A stretch of 64,000 nucleotides of DNA from Theionarchaea archaeon (GTDB taxonomy: Archaea > Methanobacteriota_B > Thermococci > Methanofastidiosales > SZ-28-30): contig JACVGT010000010.1 of NCBI GenBank assembly GCA_018992685.1, positions 1 to 64,000 of the forward strand. Reading direction: 5' to 3'. The translations under genes and the position numbers were made by a program. Under the pieces are notes generated by a model, which saw only the letters and a program-made list of their open reading frames with translations, made no database searches and had not been told where the DNA came from. Shown here in pieces: positions 284 through 36,163 of the stretch; position 1 is the first letter of the stretch; every line of letters begins with the position of its first letter.

Positions 284-3200
284 ATGAAAGAAGTCGGTGA
301 GTATTCTCCAAATCAACTGGAAGAGAGAACACTAGAGTACTGGAAGAAAAATGACACATTCCTGGAAAGTCTGAGACGAAGAGAAGATGCTCCACCTTTC
401 ATATTCGTGGAAGGACCCCCCACAGCCAACGGATTGCCTGGTGTTCACCATATTCTAGCACGTGCAATGAAAGACGCCTTCTGCAGGTACAAACACATGT
501 CAGGATACCTGGTGAAACGGAAAGGAGGATGGGATACCCATGGATTGCCGGTGGAACTTGAAGTGGAAAAAGAGCTTAACATAAACAGCAAGAGAGAGAT
601 AGAGGAATACGGAATCGAGAAATTCAACCAGAAGTGCAAGGAGAGCGTGTTCCGTTATGAAAAAGAATGGCGTGCCATGACAGAGAGGATGGCCTTCTGG
701 ATTGACATGGACAATCCATATATCACCTTGAAGAACGAGTACATGGAATCTGTATGGTGGTCTCTCAAAGAGATATGGAAGAAAGGCCTCCTGTATAAAG
801 GGCACAAGATTATCCCATACTGCCCCCGATGCGGGACTGCTCTTTCCACCCACGAAATGGCCCAGGGATACAGGACAGTAACAGAACCTTCAGTGTACGT
901 CAAATTCATGACTGAGGATAAGTCTGCCTACTTCTTGGCGTGGACTACTACACCCTGGACCCTCCTTGCCAATCTTGCTCTGACGGTGCACCCTGATTAC
1001 ACGTATGTCAAAGTAAATAACGAGGGGAATATCCTTATTCTGGTCAAGGATCGCCTGGACATACTGGAAGGTGACTTCACCATTCTGGAGGAATTCCCAG
1101 GTAGAGATCTGGAGGGAATGAGATACCATCCTCTTTTTGAATACTGCAATCCGGAAGGAAAGAGGCACGTCGTCATTCTGGGAGATTTTGTCACCACTGA
1201 CGAAGGTACAGGCATCGTGCATACTGCCCCTGCTTTTGGAGAAGAGGACTATGTCATCTGCAGGGAGAATAACGTTGCCTTCTGCCAGCCTGTAGAGGAA
1301 GATGGACGTTTCTCAAAGGATGTCGTCCCCCTTGCGGGTGTATTTGTTAAAGATGCGGATGAGCAGATTCTTGAGATGCTCGATGACAAGCGGCTGCTCT
1401 ACAAGATAGAACCGTACACCCACGAATACCCTTTCTGCTGGCGATGTGATACAGCCCTCCTGTACTATGCCAGGGAGAGCTGGTTCATCAAAATGACTGA
1501 GGTCCGGGACAAGCTCGTCCAAGATAATGACAAGGTGAACTGGACTCCCTCCCACATAAAACACGGAAGATTTGGGAATTTCCTGGAAAATGTCAGAGAC
1601 TGGTCGCTGTCCAGAGAGCGCTACTGGGGAACTCCTCTACCCATATGGGTATGTGAGTGTGGCCTGCAGGAATGCATAGGAAGTGTCCAGGAATTGCGGG
1701 AGAAAGGGGGCCACCTGCCTGAGGATTTTGACTTGCACAGACCCTATGTGGATGAAATCCTCCTGAAATGTCCAGAGTGCGGTGGAACCATGAAAAGGGT
1801 TCCTGACGTCATCGACTGCTGGTACGATTCAGGAAGCGCTCCCTTTGCTCAGTGGCACTACCCCTTTGAGAATCAGGATGTCTTCTCCTACAGCTTTCCT
1901 GCCGATTTCATCTCTGAAGCCCTGGACCAAACCCGTGGGTGGTTTTACTCACTACACGCACTGGGTACCTTGCTGTTTGAAACTGAAACCTTCAGAAACT
2001 GTGTGTGTGATGGACTGGTCTTGGGCAGAGATGGGTCCCGGATGAGCAAGAGCAGGGGAACTGCTGTGGACCCCTGGGCTGTCTTCCAGAGCTATGGGGC
2101 TGATGCCATCCGCTGGTATCTGTACAGTGTGGTATCCCCTGGGGAAAACATACGCTTCTCTGAGGAAGCTGTAGAAGATGTGTACAAAGGATTTCTTAAT
2201 ACACTGTGGAACGTATACTCGTTCTATGTGACCTACGCATTGATCGATGAGTATCATCCTGACGAGGAGAGATTGCCAGTGGAGGAACGACCTGTTCTGG
2301 ATAGATGGATGGAAAGTAGACTGCATTCTCTGGTTCAGCAGGTTGTCTCTCACCTGGATTCTTATGAGGTGCATCTGGCCACCCGGGCCATTGAGGACTT
2401 TGTCACCAATGAGGTGTCCAACTGGTATGTGAGAAGGTCCAGGAGACGATTCTGGAAGCTTGAAAAAGACAGAGACAAGAAGGCAGCGTACGATACCCTG
2501 ACTGAGGTCATGGATATGATCTCCAGGCTGATAGCACCATTCATGCCATACATCAGCGAAGAAATCTACCGGAATGTCCTGGGAAAGGAAAGTGTCCACT
2601 TCAGTGATTATCCAGTGGCAGATGTCACGAAGATTGACACAGCACTGGAGTCACAGATGGAGAAAGCAGTGGCTGCATCAGAAGCAGGGAGGGCTGCCCG
2701 CGCAGAAGCAGGCATCAAGCTGAGACAGCCAATTGCAAAGGCAGTGGTCATAACAGGTGAACCCCTGGGAGTGGTAGCATCTCTCATCAAAGAAGAGCTC
2801 AACGTAAAGGCTCTGGAGGTGAAACCCTCGTCCAGTGAGCTCATGGAGTTCTCAGTGAAATTGAACTACAAGAATGCAGGCCCGAAGTATAAGCAAAAGG
2901 TTGGAGCGGTGGAAAAGGCTCTGGCAGAATTAGATCCCCGAAAAGTGAAGGATGACCTTACAAGAGAGGGAGTTATCTCTGTGACAGTGGAATCGGAACC
3001 AGTCGAGCTCACAGAGGAGGACGTGGTGGTCAAGAGCGCAGTCACGGAAGGATATACTGGAGGGGAGTCACAGGGTGTGACCGTGTTTGTGGAAACAGGG
3101 CTGACAGAGGAACTGAAGAAGGAAGGCCTTGCCAGAGACATTGTCCGAAGAATCCAGGAAATGCGAAAGGAAATGAAGCTGGACTATAAGGACAGTATCC

Positions 3201-3370
3201 AGGTGTATTACACTGGTACTGAGACAGCAGCACAGGCAGTCCGGGAGTTCAAAGACTATATCAAACAGGAAACCCTGGCTACTATACTGGAACAGGGACA
3301 GAACCAGGGATACACAAAATCATGGACAATTGAAGGAGAAACAATAGAACTGTCACTTGCAGTACAGTAA
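284..3370 (+). CDS. ileS: Isoleucyl-tRNA synthetase
   Basis: Charges tRNA-Ile with isoleucine and edits misactivated valine, in the cytoplasm. It is a class I synthetase of 1028 residues, a normal length for the archaeal/eukaryotic type. The HIGH-type signature appears as TANGLPGVHHI near residue 48, and the KMSKS signature as GSRMSKSRG near residue 586. Zinc-binding-like Cys pairs occur near 180 (CPRC), 385 (CWRC), 457 and 496 (CPEC). The central part carries the CP1 editing insertion, and the C-terminal half has the anticodon-binding helical domain. The start is set by GAGGTG at 273-278. A long leader with a possible attenuator precedes it, and its stop lies about 50 bases before the next gene. 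Confidence 0.97.
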   Translation: MKEVGEYSPNQLEERTLEYWKKNDTFLESLRRREDAPPFIFVEGPPTANGLPGVHHILARAMKDAFCRYKHMSGYLVKRKGGWDTHGLPVELEVEKELNINSKREIEEYGIEKFNQKCKESVFRYEKEWRAMTERMAFWIDMDNPYITLKNEYMESVWWSLKEIWKKGLLYKGHKIIPYCPRCGTALSTHEMAQGYRTVTEPSVYVKFMTEDKSAYFLAWTTTPWTLLANLALTVHPDYTYVKVNNEGNILILVKDRLDILEGDFTILEEFPGRDLEGMRYHPLFEYCNPEGKRHVVILGDFVTTDEGTGIVHTAPAFGEEDYVICRENNVAFCQPVEEDGRFSKDVVPLAGVFVKDADEQILEMLDDKRLLYKIEPYTHEYPFCWRCDTALLYYARESWFIKMTEVRDKLVQDNDKVNWTPSHIKHGRFGNFLENVRDWSLSRERYWGTPLPIWVCECGLQECIGSVQELREKGGHLPEDFDLHRPYVDEILLKCPECGGTMKRVPDVIDCWYDSGSAPFAQWHYPFENQDVFSYSFPADFISEALDQTRGWFYSLHALGTLLFETETFRNCVCDGLVLGRDGSRMSKSRGTAVDPWAVFQSYGADAIRWYLYSVVSPGENIRFSEEAVEDVYKGFLNTLWNVYSFYVTYALIDEYHPDEERLPVEERPVLDRWMESRLHSLVQQVVSHLDSYEVHLATRAIEDFVTNEVSNWYVRRSRRRFWKLEKDRDKKAAYDTLTEVMDMISRLIAPFMPYISEEIYRNVLGKESVHFSDYPVADVTKIDTALESQMEKAVAASEAGRAARAEAGIKLRQPIAKAVVITGEPLGVVASLIKEELNVKALEVKPSSSELMEFSVKLNYKNAGPKYKQKVGAVEKALAELDPRKVKDDLTREGVISVTVESEPVELTEEDVVVKSAVTEGYTGGESQGVTVFVETGLTEELKKEGLARDIVRRIQEMRKEMKLDYKDSIQVYYTGTETAAQAVREFKDYIKQETLATILEQGQNQGYTKSWTIEGETIELSLAVQ

Positions 3371-10019: not shown

Positions 10020-10670
10020 CTAATCTGCCTTATAATCAGGGACAATTTCTCCTATCAGGCGCTCTTCTTCATGAAATTCTCTTTCCAGTGCCTTCCAGAA
10101 TTCTCCTGCCCTCCTGAGACTCTCTTCCGCAAATCTCTTGCCCGCCTCTGTGCTCAAGTGTTTCTGAGGAATAATTCTTTCTTTGGGGAATTCCACCATC
10201 TCCCTCACACTCATGTCTTCCTCCCCCATGAAATGATGAAATGCCCTAGCGATACCTACGTAGCCGGCTGAACAGCTGAAGTCCACATCATAGCAGATTC
10301 TTGCTTCCAGTGTTTCTGGTTCTTCTGTTCCTCTGGGCCCGTTGCTTTTCACACAATGGACGACAGCCTCGATTTCCTTATCTGTAAATCCTGCATCTCG
10401 CAAAAAATCAGGTGCGACTTCTGCTCCCTTCATGTAGTGTTCCTTGCCAGAGTCGGGATATAGTCGTCCGATATCGTGGAGAAGGATTCCCGCTATGACA
10501 ATCTTCATGTTTGCTTTTTCTTCTTCTCCCAGGTAGATTGCTTTTGCCAGATCCCTCTGTGCATGAGTCCAGTTGTGATGAACAGGGTTCTTGGTAATAT
10601 ATTCTTGTTCTACCAGCTCATACAATGTCTTCAATTCTGGACATGTTGAAAAATACCCGGTAAGGTTCAT
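10020..10670 (-). CDS. HD-domain phosphohydrolase
   Basis: Small metal-dependent phosphohydrolase of the HD superfamily. HHNWTH near residue 31 and LLHDIGRL near residue 65 supply the His and HD ligands, with HCVKSNGPRG further on. There are 216 residues. Reading is open to 10715, but ATG 10670 directly follows AGAGGAGGTATACTC and is the clear start. It stands alone between the two M29-like genes on the opposite strand, so it was probably present before, or inserted during, the duplication of its neighbours. The substrate is unknown. Confidence 0.8.
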   Translation of the reverse strand: MNLTGYFSTCPELKTLYELVEQEYITKNPVHHNWTHAQRDLAKAIYLGEEEKANMKIVIAGILLHDIGRLYPDSGKEHYMKGAEVAPDFLRDAGFTDKEIEAVVHCVKSNGPRGTEEPETLEARICYDVDFSCSAGYVGIARAFHHFMGEEDMSVREMVEFPKERIIPQKHLSTEAGKRFAEESLRRAGEFWKALEREFHEEERLIGEIVPDYKAD

Positions 10671-10881
10671 GAGTATACCTCCTCTTTCGACAGCCATCTC
10701 AACCACAGTAATCAAGATGGGTCATAGGTTGTTTTTTGACGTGTTTTATGAGATGTTCCTTCAAATATCCTTTCTTCTTGCTCTTATCAACTTAAGAGGA
10801 TAGTGCCTGAATGTTTCGGGAAAACTAATAAAGGGTTTCTCTTCAAAGGCGATGCATAATCTTGAAACCGGAGGAATAATC

Positions 10882-11940
10882 ATGGACATTGCTATGGGAG
10901 ATATTGCTCCCCTTATGGAAGGAGCACGGAAGATTGTAGTAGATTGCGCAAGAGTGACCCCCAACGAAAAAGTATTAATCATAACTGATACGGGAAGAGA
11001 TCTGGCAGTAGCGTATGCGCTCATGGAAGCAGCCATGGACGTGGGGAGTGAGGTTGCTGTCATCACCATGAAGGAACGAGACGCCCCTGGGCTGGAACCA
11101 CCTCCTCAAGTGAACAAGGCTATGCTGGAATCGGATGTTATCCTCCAGGTCACATCAACTATCATGGGATATTCACAGGCAAAAAAAGATGCCTGCAAGA
11201 AGGGAGCGAGGTTCGCTGCAATGACCGGCATGATCCCAGATATTTTGATGTCCCCTGCCCTGACGGAAACAGATTTTAAGAAGTTGAAGCCATTTGTTGA
11301 AAAAATGAGTGACATGGTGACAGCAGCAAAGAAAGCCACCGTAACGACTCATAGGGGAACAGCTCTCACTATGAACCTGGAGGGAAGAGGTGCAGAACTG
11401 TGCACTGCGATTCTGGAAACTCCAGGCAAGCTATCGGGAATGCCTGATCTCGAGGTGTACATTGCACCTGTTGAGAATTCTGTCAACGGTACAGCCGTCA
11501 TTGATGCAACCATCTCTTCTTCAGGACTCGTCACCTCTCCTGTGACTTTGACCATCAAAGATGGCATTGTACAGAAGATTGAAGGCGGAAAAGACGCAGA
11601 AGTCCTGCGGACTCTGCTGGAGAACCAGAGAAACCCTCACGTCTATCAGGTAGCTGAGCTGGGAATTGGATTGAACCCCAATGCATGCCTGCGGGGTGCC
11701 ATCATTGAAGACGAAGGAGTCTTGGGAACAGCTCATGTTGCTGTAGGAGACAATACGCTTATGAATGGTCTGAACAAAGCACCAATTCACGTTGATATGG
11801 TCATGAAAGACCCCACCATAGAACTGGATGGAAGAGTGGTGATATCTGCAGAAGGAAAAACCATTCATTTTGCATCTGAGCTCTTCCCCCTGACAGAACC
11901 TCTGAAATCTTCAGGGTGGGACACACACAAAATCCAGTGA
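10882..11940 (+). CDS. Aminopeptidase T / M29-like metalloprotein, copy 2
   Basis: Paralogue of the gene at 8807. ATG 10882 follows GGAGGAATAATC; an upstream ATG at 10852 has no ribosome site. The protein has 352 residues, about 24 more than copy 1, mostly a C-terminal tail ending THKIQ. From PDLEVYIAPVENS to AHVAVGDNT the two proteins are identical, and I counted about 11 silent base changes in 314 (11442-11755). Residues before that block differ often, for example DCARVTPNEK here against ECARVTPGEK. The shared block keeps the probable metal-binding segments, so both may be active with different N-terminal specificity. Confidence 0.8.
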   Translation: MDIAMGDIAPLMEGARKIVVDCARVTPNEKVLIITDTGRDLAVAYALMEAAMDVGSEVAVITMKERDAPGLEPPPQVNKAMLESDVILQVTSTIMGYSQAKKDACKKGARFAAMTGMIPDILMSPALTETDFKKLKPFVEKMSDMVTAAKKATVTTHRGTALTMNLEGRGAELCTAILETPGKLSGMPDLEVYIAPVENSVNGTAVIDATISSSGLVTSPVTLTIKDGIVQKIEGGKDAEVLRTLLENQRNPHVYQVAELGIGLNPNACLRGAIIEDEGVLGTAHVAVGDNTLMNGLNKAPIHVDMVMKDPTIELDGRVVISAEGKTIHFASELFPLTEPLKSSGWDTHKIQ

Positions 11941-12013
11941 CGTACCCTTCTCTTTCTTCTTTCTTTGTATTCTGGCAGCCAGAGGGTCTCTTGAACGTTC
12001 ACACTATCTCTCG

Positions 12014-31900: not shown

Positions 31901-33115
31901 TTATTCATCTCCATGGGAAGAAGCATCAGACCTCCTTAGCATGAAAAGAGCAGGTATTCCAAGCAGAATTACCACTGATGCTACATACCAGGATCCGATA
32001 ATGGAGGCTCGCTCTGCAATCACACCAAAAATGATTAACCCCAGAGCTGCAGCTCCTCTGCAGATCATGGAATCAAATGATAGAATCGTCGCCCTGGTCT
32101 CTGCTGGGATATGGTCGTTTATATACGCTTTCCGGGTGGGAAGCATGGTACCCCTCCCCACAAAGTACAGGAAGAAGAGAGGCAGCGACAACACAAAGTA
32201 GTTTGATAATCCCAGGACCAGAGGTGTGGCAGCACACAGAACAGTTGACAGGATCAGCACGTGATATCGCTTGAAGAGTGACGTCCAGTGCACCAGGAGA
32301 CTGCCCACCATCAGTCCCAGCGACAGGGCAACCCATGCGAGACCTACCTGTTGGGTGTTGGCGATCTCCTGGAAGTAGGGCTGCCAATACTGCATCACAG
32401 CCATGTATGCAAACATTGAGATGGCGCCAGGTATGATCAGGAATAACACCACCTTATTCTTTACCCCATAGGTAATGCTGAATCCAATGATTTTTTTCAT
32501 CTGTGATGCTCCATTCCTCAAAGAGAGGTTCTCCCTTCCTAGGTGCACCTCCTCCATCAGTAGATATCCTATCCAGAGAGTTGCCAGAGCCAACACCGCT
32601 CCCGCCAGAAAGGGATATGCTAAATTGCGTGAACCCAGGAATGCTCCAGAGAGTCCTGCAACAATCGACATGCCGCTTGCCAGGGTAGCCGCTCTCCCGA
32701 AGAGCCTGTCTTTCTTTTGTGTGTATCCGTTGGCATCCAGAGAGTCCACGAACCAGGCTTCCAGCGCACCCGAATGGAATGTCATGCCTATGGCAGCCAC
32801 TATTTCTGCAAGGGCAAAAAAGAGAAGAGACCCTGAGAAGAAGTAGATGAAAAAAGAAAAAGACATGAATAAGCAGGCAATCAGGAAGGAACGCTTGCGT
32901 CCAAACATGTCTGATACTGCACCTGTGGGAATCTCCAGAAGGAACACACTCCCCATGTAGAAGATATTTACCAGGTTGACCTGCAACAGATTCAGCCCCT
33001 TGGAAAGCATGAAGAGAATGTTTGTCGCCTGAATGGTGTTTACAGACAACATAAATAAGCATTCCAACAGGTAGAATGTGAGTACCGTCTTTTTCAGTCT
33101 ATGTATGAAGCCCAC
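31901..33115 (-). CDS. MFS exporter of the RiPP operon
   Basis: A 404-residue major facilitator protein with about twelve membrane helices and the loop GAVSDMFGRKRSFLI near residue 67. It is the last gene of the operon. GTG 33115 overlaps the end of the second maturase by 17 bases, which suggests coupling and a role in exporting the modified peptide or its fragments. No ATG is close, and no peptidase domain is fused. It could instead carry an unrelated solute, but the position is persuasive. Confidence 0.8.
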   Translation of the reverse strand: MGFIHRLKKTVLTFYLLECLFMLSVNTIQATNILFMLSKGLNLLQVNLVNIFYMGSVFLLEIPTGAVSDMFGRKRSFLIACLFMSFSFFIYFFSGSLLFFALAEIVAAIGMTFHSGALEAWFVDSLDANGYTQKKDRLFGRAATLASGMSIVAGLSGAFLGSRNLAYPFLAGAVLALATLWIGYLLMEEVHLGRENLSLRNGASQMKKIIGFSITYGVKNKVVLFLIIPGAISMFAYMAVMQYWQPYFQEIANTQQVGLAWVALSLGLMVGSLLVHWTSLFKRYHVLILSTVLCAATPLVLGLSNYFVLSLPLFFLYFVGRGTMLPTRKAYINDHIPAETRATILSFDSMICRGAAALGLIIFGVIAERASIIGSWYVASVVILLGIPALFMLRRSDASSHGDE

Positions 33116-34454
33116 CTTTGGTTCGTTCTTTCAAGAAGGGATAGTAGTATCGGGCGGACTCGAAGAGAACATCTTGTACATCAGTGCAGAATGGGCTGCC
33201 GATACTCCCTTCCTTTTCTGCAGCAAGCTTTGTACACCCTCCACCGCATACGAGCGCCAGGTTGCAGGACGTACATTTTTGCATGCATAGAATACTCCTG
33301 TTCCTCCATGATCCCAAGACGCTCTCATCTATTTCGAGTGTTGGAAAGAATCGTCCCACTTTGTATTCTTCAACACCAGCACTATCAACGCAGGTATAGA
33401 CATCCCCATTCAAATCAAAACAATAGCGAGTCATGTTCCCTCCACAGAATTTGAACTGGGGAGATGGAAGATGCCCAGTTTCCAAGACCTTTCTGAAGAT
33501 TTCAGCTCCGACCCAACCAACAAGGTGAATGACACTCATATCTTCACAATTTCGGTAGAAGTCAAAGATTTGATGTAGTGAGACATGTTCTGGCAGTCTG
33601 TGTTCATATTCCATGCAGCTGATGTCTCTCATGGGGGCAAGGTAGGGGACAATCAGGTTATTTCCTTTCCAGCCCTGTTCAACAAAGAAATGGGCCAGCT
33701 CAGGAAGAAGAGGTAAATTCTGAGCATCCACGTTGATGTGAATTGCTATCTTTATGTTGTTATCCACTGCCTTCTGAACTCCTCGTATGATGGGAGCAAA
33801 CGTCCCTCCAGACGTGGCAGAGATGCGCCTCTTGTTGTGTATCTCTTCAGGCCCATCCACTGTGACCTGGATATACTCCAGCTTATAGGAAGACAACATA
33901 TCGGTGTAGAATTCCAGATCCACGCCATTCGAGACAATTTTGGGTTTCCACCCGCGATTGTTGCTTTCTTCAAGGGTTTTCTGGATAACCTCAGATTGCC
34001 TCTTCCTCTTCAAGAGTGGTTCTCCCCCGAAAATCACAAAGTAGGGGAGTTCCTTTGATGGTGATCTTTCCTGAAGATAGTCCATGCTTTCAAAGGCAGC
34101 CTGAAGACATTCATCATCAATGACAGCACTTTTCAAGGCTGAATGATCCTGAAAGCAGTAGCTGCAACGGAGGTTGCATGCGTAGGTGGGGTACAGATAG
34201 AAAACGGGCAGACTCGTTCTGATCTTCTCCTCATACTCTCTGAACCGATAGTTCAGAAACCTGTCCTCGTGTTCCTCGATTTCGTACACGTATCCCTTTC
34301 TCTTCAAAGTGAGCAGTATGTTGGCATCACTTATCTCTTCACCACGTTCCAGACTCTTGAGGATTTCCACCATTTCATCATCAATGATATCCATGGCAGA
34401 AGACAGATTATTCATCAAAATGTACATTCCTTCTTCATCTACTGGCAGCAGCAA
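33099..34454 (-). CDS. Radical SAM/SPASM peptide maturase 2
   Basis: A 451-residue RiPP-modifying enzyme. The radical SAM cluster motif CNLRCSYCF is at residues 93-101. The SPASM part has CGGNMTRYC, GDVYTC, and CTSCNLALVCGGGC, followed by a last Cys (SPFCTD), for two auxiliary Fe-S clusters. It resembles maturase 1 throughout, including its N-terminus. I give TTG 34454, the first standard start. However, the similarity extends seven codons further (IHLSRYN, like MYVSRYT of maturase 1) to an ATA at 34475, well placed after GGGAGGT. An ATA start, or reading through the in-frame TAG of maturase 1, should be considered. Confidence 0.85.
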   Translation of the reverse strand: MLLPVDEEGMYILMNNLSSAMDIIDDEMVEILKSLERGEEISDANILLTLKRKGYVYEIEEHEDRFLNYRFREYEEKIRTSLPVFYLYPTYACNLRCSYCFQDHSALKSAVIDDECLQAAFESMDYLQERSPSKELPYFVIFGGEPLLKRKRQSEVIQKTLEESNNRGWKPKIVSNGVDLEFYTDMLSSYKLEYIQVTVDGPEEIHNKRRISATSGGTFAPIIRGVQKAVDNNIKIAIHINVDAQNLPLLPELAHFFVEQGWKGNNLIVPYLAPMRDISCMEYEHRLPEHVSLHQIFDFYRNCEDMSVIHLVGWVGAEIFRKVLETGHLPSPQFKFCGGNMTRYCFDLNGDVYTCVDSAGVEEYKVGRFFPTLEIDESVLGSWRNRSILCMQKCTSCNLALVCGGGCTKLAAEKEGSIGSPFCTDVQDVLFESARYYYPFLKERTKGGLHT

Positions 34455-34481
34455 ATTGTAACGACTAAGATGTATACTATG

Positions 34482-35852
34482 CTAACCTCCCTCTGCTCTT
34501 TTCTTTATGTAGGGGTAGTAGTAGTGAAACCCGAGATTCAATATCTGGTGTATTCCCACACAGGGGCTGGCCTGCAATGAACCATGTTTTGTCACCGCGA
34601 TGAACGTACAGCCTCCCCCGCACAGGAGATTGTAGGAGCAGGTGCTGCACTTTGGAAGTGTCAAGATGTTTCTCGTTTCCCATTGGTTGAGCAAGTCAAC
34701 ATAGAACTCCGATTCCGGAAAGAACTTTCCGATAACCTGACTCTTCTCCCCCGCGAATCCAGCGCATGCGTAGATGTCCCCGAATGTGTCGAAGCATAAC
34801 CGCTTCATTCCTGCCCCACAGAAGTTGAAAAGGGGAGAATACAGCCGGCCCTTTTTCACCAGGTTTTCTATGCTTTCCATCCATCTCCATCCCATCAGTG
34901 TGATGATTTTTGTCTCCGGACGCTCTGCATACATGTTCAGTACTGTCTTGAGCAACTGCGGAAGCGGAACAACATGTTCCTGTCCAATGCAACCAGAATC
35001 CCTCACAGCCGCAATGTACGGCGTGATCAACCCGGTGTCCTTCCAGCCTCTTTCTATGATAAAGGAGGCCATCTCAGGCAGTGTTGAGAGATTCTCTTTG
35101 TCCACATTGATGCGCAGTGCAATGTTCATTCCTATTTCCTTTAGAACCCTGTCTATGTTATCTGCAATTCGGTCAAAGCTTCCCGATCCATCCGCGAAAA
35201 TCCTCCTCCTGTTGTGTGTGTCTCTCGGTCCATCCAGGGTGACCTGAATATGTTTATCCACATATTTCCGGACTATGTCTATGTAATGACCAAGATCAAC
35301 CCCATTCGTAATTATTTTTGAGTGAAATCCCATATCCTGGCATTTCTTGAGGATGTATGTAACTGCTTCTTTCTGCTCTTTGCGATACATCAGTGGTTCT
35401 CCACCGAATAGGGTGAGCAAGGGCTGTTCTTTGGCTCCTCCTTCTGAATGGAATTTTTCCATGACCTCAAATGCCTTGTCAACAAGACGGGGTTTGATAA
35501 CATCTCCAATTCTCATGTCCTCTGTCTGAAAACAGTAGGTGCAGCGGAGATTGCATCCATATGTTGGATAGATAAAAAAAGACTCGGGCTCTGAAGCAAG
35601 GTTCTTGTTCCACTGCTCGAAAGCTTCTGTGATCAACTTTTCTTCATCTTCTTTTTTTAGATAAATGTATCTTCTCCTTGCCAGTTCATAGAGTATTTCT
35701 CTGTTATTCACCAACTCCCCCTGACTTAAGGTCTTGATGACGTCAATAACCTCTTTATCAACTATATCAACAGCTCCTGAAAGAGGATTCACCAAGATGA
35801 TGTCCTCTGTATCAGAAATTGGAAAAAAGAAAGTATAACGACTAACGTACAT
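34482..35852 (-). CDS. Radical SAM/SPASM peptide maturase 1
   Basis: Probable enzyme that modifies the repeat peptide encoded just upstream. Residues 1-80 form a small domain beginning MYVSRYTFFFP with VNPLSGAVDIVD. The radical SAM motif CNLRCTYCF is at Cys 100, 104 and 107, and GGEP follows. The C-terminal SPASM region holds about eight Cys (near 345, 353, 363, 402, 405, 411, 415 and 431) for two Fe-S clusters, including CSTCSYNLLCGGGC. There are 456 residues. ATG 35852 follows GGTGATC; GTG 35861 is an upstream alternative. It starts 29 bases after the precursor stop. Related enzymes form thioether links at Cys of peptides. Confidence 0.88.
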   Translation of the reverse strand: MYVSRYTFFFPISDTEDIILVNPLSGAVDIVDKEVIDVIKTLSQGELVNNREILYELARRRYIYLKKEDEEKLITEAFEQWNKNLASEPESFFIYPTYGCNLRCTYCFQTEDMRIGDVIKPRLVDKAFEVMEKFHSEGGAKEQPLLTLFGGEPLMYRKEQKEAVTYILKKCQDMGFHSKIITNGVDLGHYIDIVRKYVDKHIQVTLDGPRDTHNRRRIFADGSGSFDRIADNIDRVLKEIGMNIALRINVDKENLSTLPEMASFIIERGWKDTGLITPYIAAVRDSGCIGQEHVVPLPQLLKTVLNMYAERPETKIITLMGWRWMESIENLVKKGRLYSPLFNFCGAGMKRLCFDTFGDIYACAGFAGEKSQVIGKFFPESEFYVDLLNQWETRNILTLPKCSTCSYNLLCGGGCTFIAVTKHGSLQASPCVGIHQILNLGFHYYYPYIKKRAEGG

Positions 35853-35881
35853 GGCGATCACCAGATCAAGTAGTGTGCGCG

Positions 35882-36109
35882 TTATGGCACAGCAACTTCA
35901 AGAGCACAGAATGTTGGCTGGACTTCAAGAGCACAGAATGTTGGCTGGACTTCAAGAGCACAGAATGTTGGCTGGACTTCAAGAGCACAGAATGTTGGCT
36001 GGACTTCAAGAGCACAGAATGTTGGCTGGACTTCAAGAGCACAATACAGTGTTCCGCTTTCGTCCTTCAGGTTAAGGTTCTCGTCACTAACCACAGATTT
36101 CATGAACAT
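35882..36109 (-). CDS. Candidate RiPP precursor with six Cys in nonapeptide repeats
   Basis: A 75-residue peptide: leader MFMKSVVSDENLNLKDESG plus TLY, then CALEVQPTF five times and a final CALEVAVP. Cys sits at 23, 32, 41, 50, 59 and 68, each preceded by an aromatic residue. The first codon follows TAGGAGGTGAACAC, the best ribosome site in the neighbourhood, and a TATA-like CTAAATAC lies about 42 bases upstream. Two SPASM maturases and an exporter follow in the same operon. The spacing Cys-x-x-Glu in each unit suggests links from Cys to the Glu or a neighbour, but the chemistry is unknown. It resembles no precursor I know. Confidence 0.82.
   Translation of the reverse strand: MFMKSVVSDENLNLKDESGTLYCALEVQPTFCALEVQPTFCALEVQPTFCALEVQPTFCALEVQPTFCALEVAVP
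35895..36043 (-). repeat. Five identical 27-base repeats plus a partial sixth
   Basis: The unit (plus-strand start ACTTCAAGAGCACAGAATGT, then GGCTGG preceded by T) occurs without any base difference at 35895, 35922, 35949, 35976 and 36003. A 14-base sixth copy lies at 36030-36043. It encodes the nonapeptide repeats of the precursor. All three frames of both strands stay open across it, so open frames on the plus strand are by-products. Perfect identity implies recent expansion or homogenisation, and copy number may vary between strains. Confidence 0.95.
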
Positions 36110-36163
36110 GTGTTCACCTCCTAAAGGTTTTACTTTCCATCCCGCACGAGTATTTAGATCTAA
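36110..36163 (-). promoter_or_regulatory. Promoter and ribosome site of the RiPP operon
   Basis: On the minus strand TCTAAATAC (about 36149-36157) is a TATA-like box, overlapped by a perfect palindrome TTAGATCTAA (36154-36163), a candidate operator. Transcription would begin near 36127, giving a leader of about 18 bases that contains AGGAGGTG. This is short but allows strong translation. Confidence 0.45.

Follow-up and report, generated by a model that had tools for sequence, protein, structure and literature searches.

The question raised by this locus is whether a small ORF with regularly spaced Cys codons, located beside genes for two SPASM maturases and a transporter, encodes the precursor of a RiPP, and which modification the two enzymes would introduce into it. 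The window is the whole 64 kb stretch of DNA that was analysed, and an earlier note on it had proposed an archaeal RiPP operon. The genome confirmed the archaeal origin: one of its proteins is a replication factor C small subunit of archaeal type, which scored 493 bits where the cut-off is 303. Identity as a methanogen was rejected, as mcrA was not found in the assembly.

Gene order and the precursor array

The genes follow one another on the minus strand in the order precursor, maturase 1, maturase 2 and MFS transporter.

36150..36156, minus strand: TATA-like box TAAATAC, 5' of the precursor (TAAATACTC kept in the congeneric genome, within diverged surroundings)
36114..36122, minus strand: strong Shine-Dalgarno sequence AGGAGGTGA of the precursor (from the sequence; identical in the congeneric genome)
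35882..36109, minus strand: precursor peptide gene, 75 aa, comprising a 22-aa leader MFMKSVVSDENLNLKDESGTLY, five units CALEVQPTF and a terminal CALEVAVP
35895..36043, minus strand: tandem array of 5.5 identical 27-bp units coding C-A-L-E-V-Q-P-T-F (TRF, 100% match)
34482..35852, minus strand: maturase 1, RRE, radical SAM and SPASM, 456 aa, ATG start (Pfam PF04055, AF2, CteB match)
33099..34475, minus strand: maturase 2, RRE, radical SAM and SPASM (Pfam Radical_SAM, alignment, model)
31901..33115, minus strand: MFS transporter, GTG start, overlapping maturase 2 by 17 nt (Pfam MFS_1; 84% orthologue in the congeneric genome)

The precursor and maturase 1 were spaced by 29 nt, as the earlier note had given, and the overlap of maturase 2 with the MFS gene (17 nt) was likewise borne out; the gap between the maturases, described there as zero or nearly so, is corrected to 6 nt. 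The four genes are presumably co-transcribed, and the TATA-like box is a putative promoter element. Maturase 2 has ATA at 34475-34473 where the congeneric orthologue has ATG. Its translation may begin at this rare start codon or at the downstream TTG at 34454, or the ATA may be a base error.

The ORF, its 22-residue leader, the five CALEVQPTF units with the final CALEVAVP and the Cys at every ninth residue had all been read correctly before, according to the sequence, the ORF list and TRF. The array was the single tandem repeat detected by TRF in the whole 64 kb (period 27, 5.5 copies, 100% match), and therefore it is not due to chance. Other reading frames were also open over the array, at 35851-36075 (+) and 35873-36124 (+). 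Because the period of 27 is a multiple of 3, openness alone is weak evidence. The precursor matched no model in Pfam or NCBIfam.

Conservation of the operon in a congeneric genome

G001, the sole congeneric genome compared, carried the whole operon in synteny, with the same gene order and the same flanking neighbours; the search of relatives for a conserved homologous operon thus recovered a complete one. The maturase orthologues were 87% and 78% identical and the MFS orthologue, in the same place, 84%. The precursor orthologue (L037 8550-8726) reads MFMKSVVSDKNLNLRDESGTLY-(CALEVQPTF)x4, with a TGA where the terminal unit would have its Cys codon. Between the two genomes, dS was about 1.0-1.1 for the maturase and MFS genes. 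The dN/dS value was 0.019 for the precursor (dS 0.76), compared with 0.069 and 0.097 for the maturases and 0.091 for the MFS gene.

The sequences indicate that the array is under concerted evolution with the unit peptide held constant. Its units were uniform in DNA within each genome, and two synonymous sites per unit differed between the genomes (GTC/GTT and ACA/ACT). Unit number was 5 plus 1 partial here and 4 in G001, as counted in two fragmented assemblies (45 and about 150 contigs). In a cross-species frame test the claimed frame alone was conserved, while the other five changed residues or carried or gained stops. A simple-repeat artefact and a wrong frame were ruled out by this test.

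Architecture of the two maturases

The CxxxCxxC motif and the full SPASM Cys sets ascribed to both maturases were present, with all seven SPASM Cys, and these 10 cluster cysteines were invariant in alignments of 28 homologues. Both proteins were modelled confidently by AlphaFold (pLDDT 90.3 for maturase 1 and 89.7 for maturase 2), and the motif and the seven SPASM Cys lie in a radical-SAM fold, as in SPASM peptide maturases. Each N-terminus was predicted to form three strands and helices in the strand-strand-strand-helix arrangement of RREs, and each protein matched CteB over nearly its full length, so that both may bind the leader. CteB (5wgg, 5why) was the nearest PDB entry in sequence and in fold, at 21-23% identity and with a best match of E 2e-23 for maturase 1. 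The title of the CteB entry mentions thioether bond formation.

None of the NCBIfam thioether-maturase models was matched at its cut-off. The top family for both maturases was NF038107 (CefB, the 'Cys-every-fifth' maturase), at 159.4 and 132.7 bits against a cut-off of 600, followed by TIGR04463, PapB, geopeptide, Clo7bot and SCIFF. Scores were 130.9 and 115.5 bits for the PapB family NF047865 (cut-off 340) and 108.8 and 83.1 bits for the SCIFF maturase model TIGR03974 (cut-off 425). Both maturases scored far under the cut-offs of the sactisynthase models.

An encoded precursor with leader and core thus adjoins modifying enzymes and is conserved together with them, which is the general mark of a RiPP. 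The proposal of a RiPP operon with SPASM maturases and a Cys-bearing core gained support from the conservation of the operon, the strong purifying selection on the precursor, the concerted evolution of the units, the RRE-type N-terminal fold and CteB as the nearest structure. Taken together, the sequence evidence argues strongly for a RiPP operon, whose peptide would be modified post-translationally.

A sister operon and the relationships of the maturases

A sister operon was located on contig C132 of G001 (L038). Its 79-aa ORF is preceded by a strong Shine-Dalgarno sequence and contains three F-C-A-T-L-P-x-E units at a spacing of exactly 17 residues. Downstream lie a SPASM maturase that is intact and shares 36% identity with maturase 1, and then a second SPASM protein.

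L038 2598-3734: SPASM protein without the radical-SAM CxxxCxxC region, paired with the intact maturase

Codons of the FCATLPxE motif vary synonymously in this array (TGT/TGC, GCA/GCT/GCG, ACT/ACG, CTT/CTC, CCA/CCC/CCT and GAG/GAA) while the linkers diverge, and the motif is therefore under selection. The only tripeptide common to the units of both operons is [F/Y]-C-A. Glu has a fixed place in each unit, at +3 in CALEVQPTF and at +6 in the sister operon, where Leu stands at +3. The similarity of the two leaders was not significant (p 0.42), and a leader common to both operons was dropped for this reason. The sister operon retains the degenerate SPASM protein, so a second catalytic activity does not appear to be always needed.

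Maturases 1 and 2 were 38-39% identical. In a tree of 55 sequences they were sisters (98/93) and grouped with the two SPASM proteins of the sister operon (95/88); this grouping weakened in a smaller tree, where a single long branch was dominant. An ancestral pair was also considered, in which maturase 1 would correspond to the intact sister enzyme and maturase 2 to the degenerate one. The AU test spoke mildly against it for maturase 2 (p 0.04); for maturase 1 the AU p was 0.12, with a long branch in the tree.

Distribution

Among the relatives searched, the precursor was found only in G001 and was absent from 59 others. It was not found in viral contigs, and plasmids gave no plausible match, only partial ones of 34% identity. 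A widespread operon was rejected, as searches of relatives, viral contigs, plasmids and further genomes gave two carriers only; records very near the window are possibly missing from some collections, so this rarity is an upper-bound statement.

Maturases this close were confined to the genus among 115 genomes of the phylum, with 11 per genome here and 14 in G001 against at most three in the other 113. Other genomes of the same class had up to three more distant maturases each, and no repeat precursor lay beside those examined. The maturases were also sought in two other groups, of 392 and 227 genomes, at strict thresholds and with no positive control, and no match was obtained. Relatives in Bacteroidota (L047-L049, 29-30%) had no repeat precursor; their neighbours were a methyltransferase and a thioredoxin-like gene. 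Plasmid and phage records contained distant relatives only.

Other Cys-rich ORFs near maturases

Many of the maturases in the two genomes (L009-L014 here, L037-L045 in G001) occur in pairs or triples beside short, Cys-rich ORFs preceded by Shine-Dalgarno sequences, for example MKALRVNKKLWTNV...CGCGGCCCAFYC (L011 7931-8089) and ...KCGGCACGCFVVNC (L010 4963-5157). Both genomes have duplicated tiny ORFs ending in ...EIDQCMCCA... (L012 7155-7232 and 7539-7637; L044 7390-7467 and 7764-7862). These adjoin a SPASM maturase, a PqqD-like protein (L012 5412-5666), a methyltransferase-like gene and an MFS gene, and their neighbourhood is likely another RiPP cluster. Downstream of a SPASM maturase at 10576-12009 lies an ORF of 166 aa (L041 12741-13241, +) whose N-terminus is signal-like and whose C-terminal half is dense in Cys; it has a GTG start without a clear Shine-Dalgarno sequence. 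Two related precursor-like ORFs, at 3109-3273 and 9243-9410 of L039, start with MKAISLNKKLW(T/R)DV and have Gly/Cys-rich tails; both are on one contig, among several maturases.

Archaeal RiPPs are little characterised: PMC12144867 reports 24 lanthipeptides, and archaeal radical-SAM RiPPs are represented there by bulk predictions. A genus with 11-14 related maturases per genome, many of them beside different short Cys-rich ORFs, should therefore be rich in RiPP chemistry that is as yet unexplored.

Proposed chemistry and its alternatives

We propose, at a probability of roughly 0.55, that the operon makes a tandem-core RiPP on which the paired maturases form one thioether per unit, most likely from Cys to Glu, and that the product is exported. 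The two SPASM maturases, which are related by duplication, would hold the 22-aa leader with their RRE domains. The pair, probably acting jointly, would then make one intramolecular thioether in each 9-residue unit by means of SAM-derived radicals. Cys would be the donor and the Glu three residues on (C-A-L-E) the most likely acceptor, giving a link of the ranthipeptide type from Cys to the gamma-carbon. The modified chain would leave, whole or cut into 9-mer units, through the MFS protein, a putative exporter that may instead serve self-protection. The operon contains no peptidase.

Family resemblance makes a thioether the likeliest chemistry. Naming Glu +3 as the acceptor is guesswork, and we would put its chances between one in three and one in two. 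Thioethers between Cys and Asp/Glu are made by PapB in six CX3D motifs, and CXnD substrates with n of 0-6 are also accepted (PMC9413430); this tolerance of spacing, together with the use of Glu, makes CX2E chemically plausible. Joint action has a precedent in TrnC and TrnD of thuricin CD, two radical-SAM enzymes that work as a complex and of which just one requires its radical cluster (PMC12093266). Such an arrangement seems to have its natural end-point in the degenerate partner encoded by the sister operon, and that operon is a natural test of the second SPASM partner as a mere scaffold. Several observations count against the favoured reading: no maturase reached the cut-off of a thioether family, the units of the sister operon lack the Glu at +3, the leaders of the two operons show no significant similarity, a peptidase gene is absent from the operon, the operon occurs in two genomes only, and MFS proteins mostly transport small molecules. 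The aromatic-Cys-Ala tripeptide, as the sole element common to both operons, could mean another acceptor, or recognition. Six near-identical substrates in one chain would allow the modification to be read as a loss of 2 Da times n.

It is possible, though we hold it doubtful, that the maturases act sequentially at different sites, each introducing its own modification, and not as one complex. The full CxxxCxxC and SPASM sets in both enzymes would fit such a division, and radical-SAM pairs that act in one RiPP pathway are described, namely RumMC1 and RumMC2 (PMC8188230). Sequential action is harder to reconcile with the sister operon, which retains two SPASM proteins though one has lost its radical-SAM site.

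Different acceptors would give a sactipeptide. The Cys sulfur would then be joined to the alpha-carbon of another residue, such as the Phe/Tyr before Cys, the Thr at +7 or one in a neighbouring unit, and the units would be chained or looped instead of each closing on its Glu. We regard this as unlikely: [FY]-C-A is indeed the sole tripeptide common to the sister operons, and thuricin CD, whose enzymes also pair, is a sactipeptide, but the sactisynthase models stayed far under their cut-offs and CteB, the nearest structure, forms a non-alpha thioether link in SCIFF chemistry.

Rather less likely still is a chemistry other than thioether formation, either a C-C cross-link (a cyclophane at Phe/Tyr), epimerisation or a cyclopropane, with the Cys left free or binding a metal. 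The aromatic residue at -1 is kept in both operons, and TvgB, a SPASM enzyme with a repetitive precursor, makes cyclopropylglycine on TVGG repeats (PMC9062424). Against these, every unit in both operons is centred on a Cys that does not vary and is under purifying selection, and the closest fold is that of the thioether-forming CteB. That the repeat ORF is unexpressed, or is a non-substrate repeat lying by chance next to the maturases, is highly improbable in view of the conserved Shine-Dalgarno sequence and TATA-like box, the dN/dS of 0.019 over a dS of 0.76 and the single conserved frame.

Returning to the paired-maturase thioether reading, an enzyme that places the same cross-link in unit after unit of a tandem array would be a useful tool for peptide engineering.

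Comparison with known systems

Freyrasin, made by PapA-PapB of Paenibacillus, resembles the present system in its six regular Cys motifs, an acidic residue close downstream and a SPASM maturase. It differs in that the motif here is C-x2-E and not C-x3-D, that two maturases are present and not one, that the tandem units are identical, that the host is archaeal and that scores stay below the cut-off. CefA/CefB (NF038107) was the best-scoring curated family and, going by its name, has a precursor with periodic Cys, but Cys is not at every fifth position here (every 9 residues, 17 in the sister operon) and the maturases stay well under 600 bits. SCIFF/CteB (5wgg, 5why) shares the RRE-radical SAM-SPASM architecture and is the nearest solved sequence and fold; identity is only 21-23%, and SCIFF has one maturase and a core whose Cys lie close together in a single motif that is not tandemly repeated.

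Thuricin CD also has two adjacent radical-SAM maturases and small Cys precursors, and the radical site that is dispensable in one of its enzymes has its parallel in the site lost from the sister operon; unlike the present system, it has two precursors, sactionine links and no tandem core, and joint action of the maturases here is only probable. TigE is a repeat-precursor SPASM RiPP enzyme, and its structure 8vpo appeared among the structure-search matches. TvgA/TvgB is similar in that a SPASM enzyme modifies the units of a tandem-repeat precursor, but its TVGG units have no Cys and its chemistry is that of cyclopropylglycine (PMC9062424).

The earlier note had held that a strictly periodic archaeal precursor seems new, which goes too far. 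Periodicity itself is known in bacteria, where CxxxC-repeat and SCIFF-type ORFs were found among the relatives fetched; what had no counterpart in the libraries and genomes searched is the particular precursor built of [FY]CA tandem units. Judged by its sequence, the precursor represents a new family, accompanied by a maturase pair and so far confined to one archaeal genus. Possible, though less likely than not, is a new and so far archaeal class of tandem-core RiPPs. Its [F/Y]-C-A units, fixed at 9 or 17 residues, would each be cross-linked singly by an obligate SPASM pair whose second subunit can lose its radical-SAM site; unequal exchange would change the number of units and leave the peptide of each unit as it is. 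Since membership in the CefB, PapB and SCIFF families fails, and SPASM precursors with periodic Cys and with repeat cores are known, the operon is best described as a new variety within a known RiPP class.
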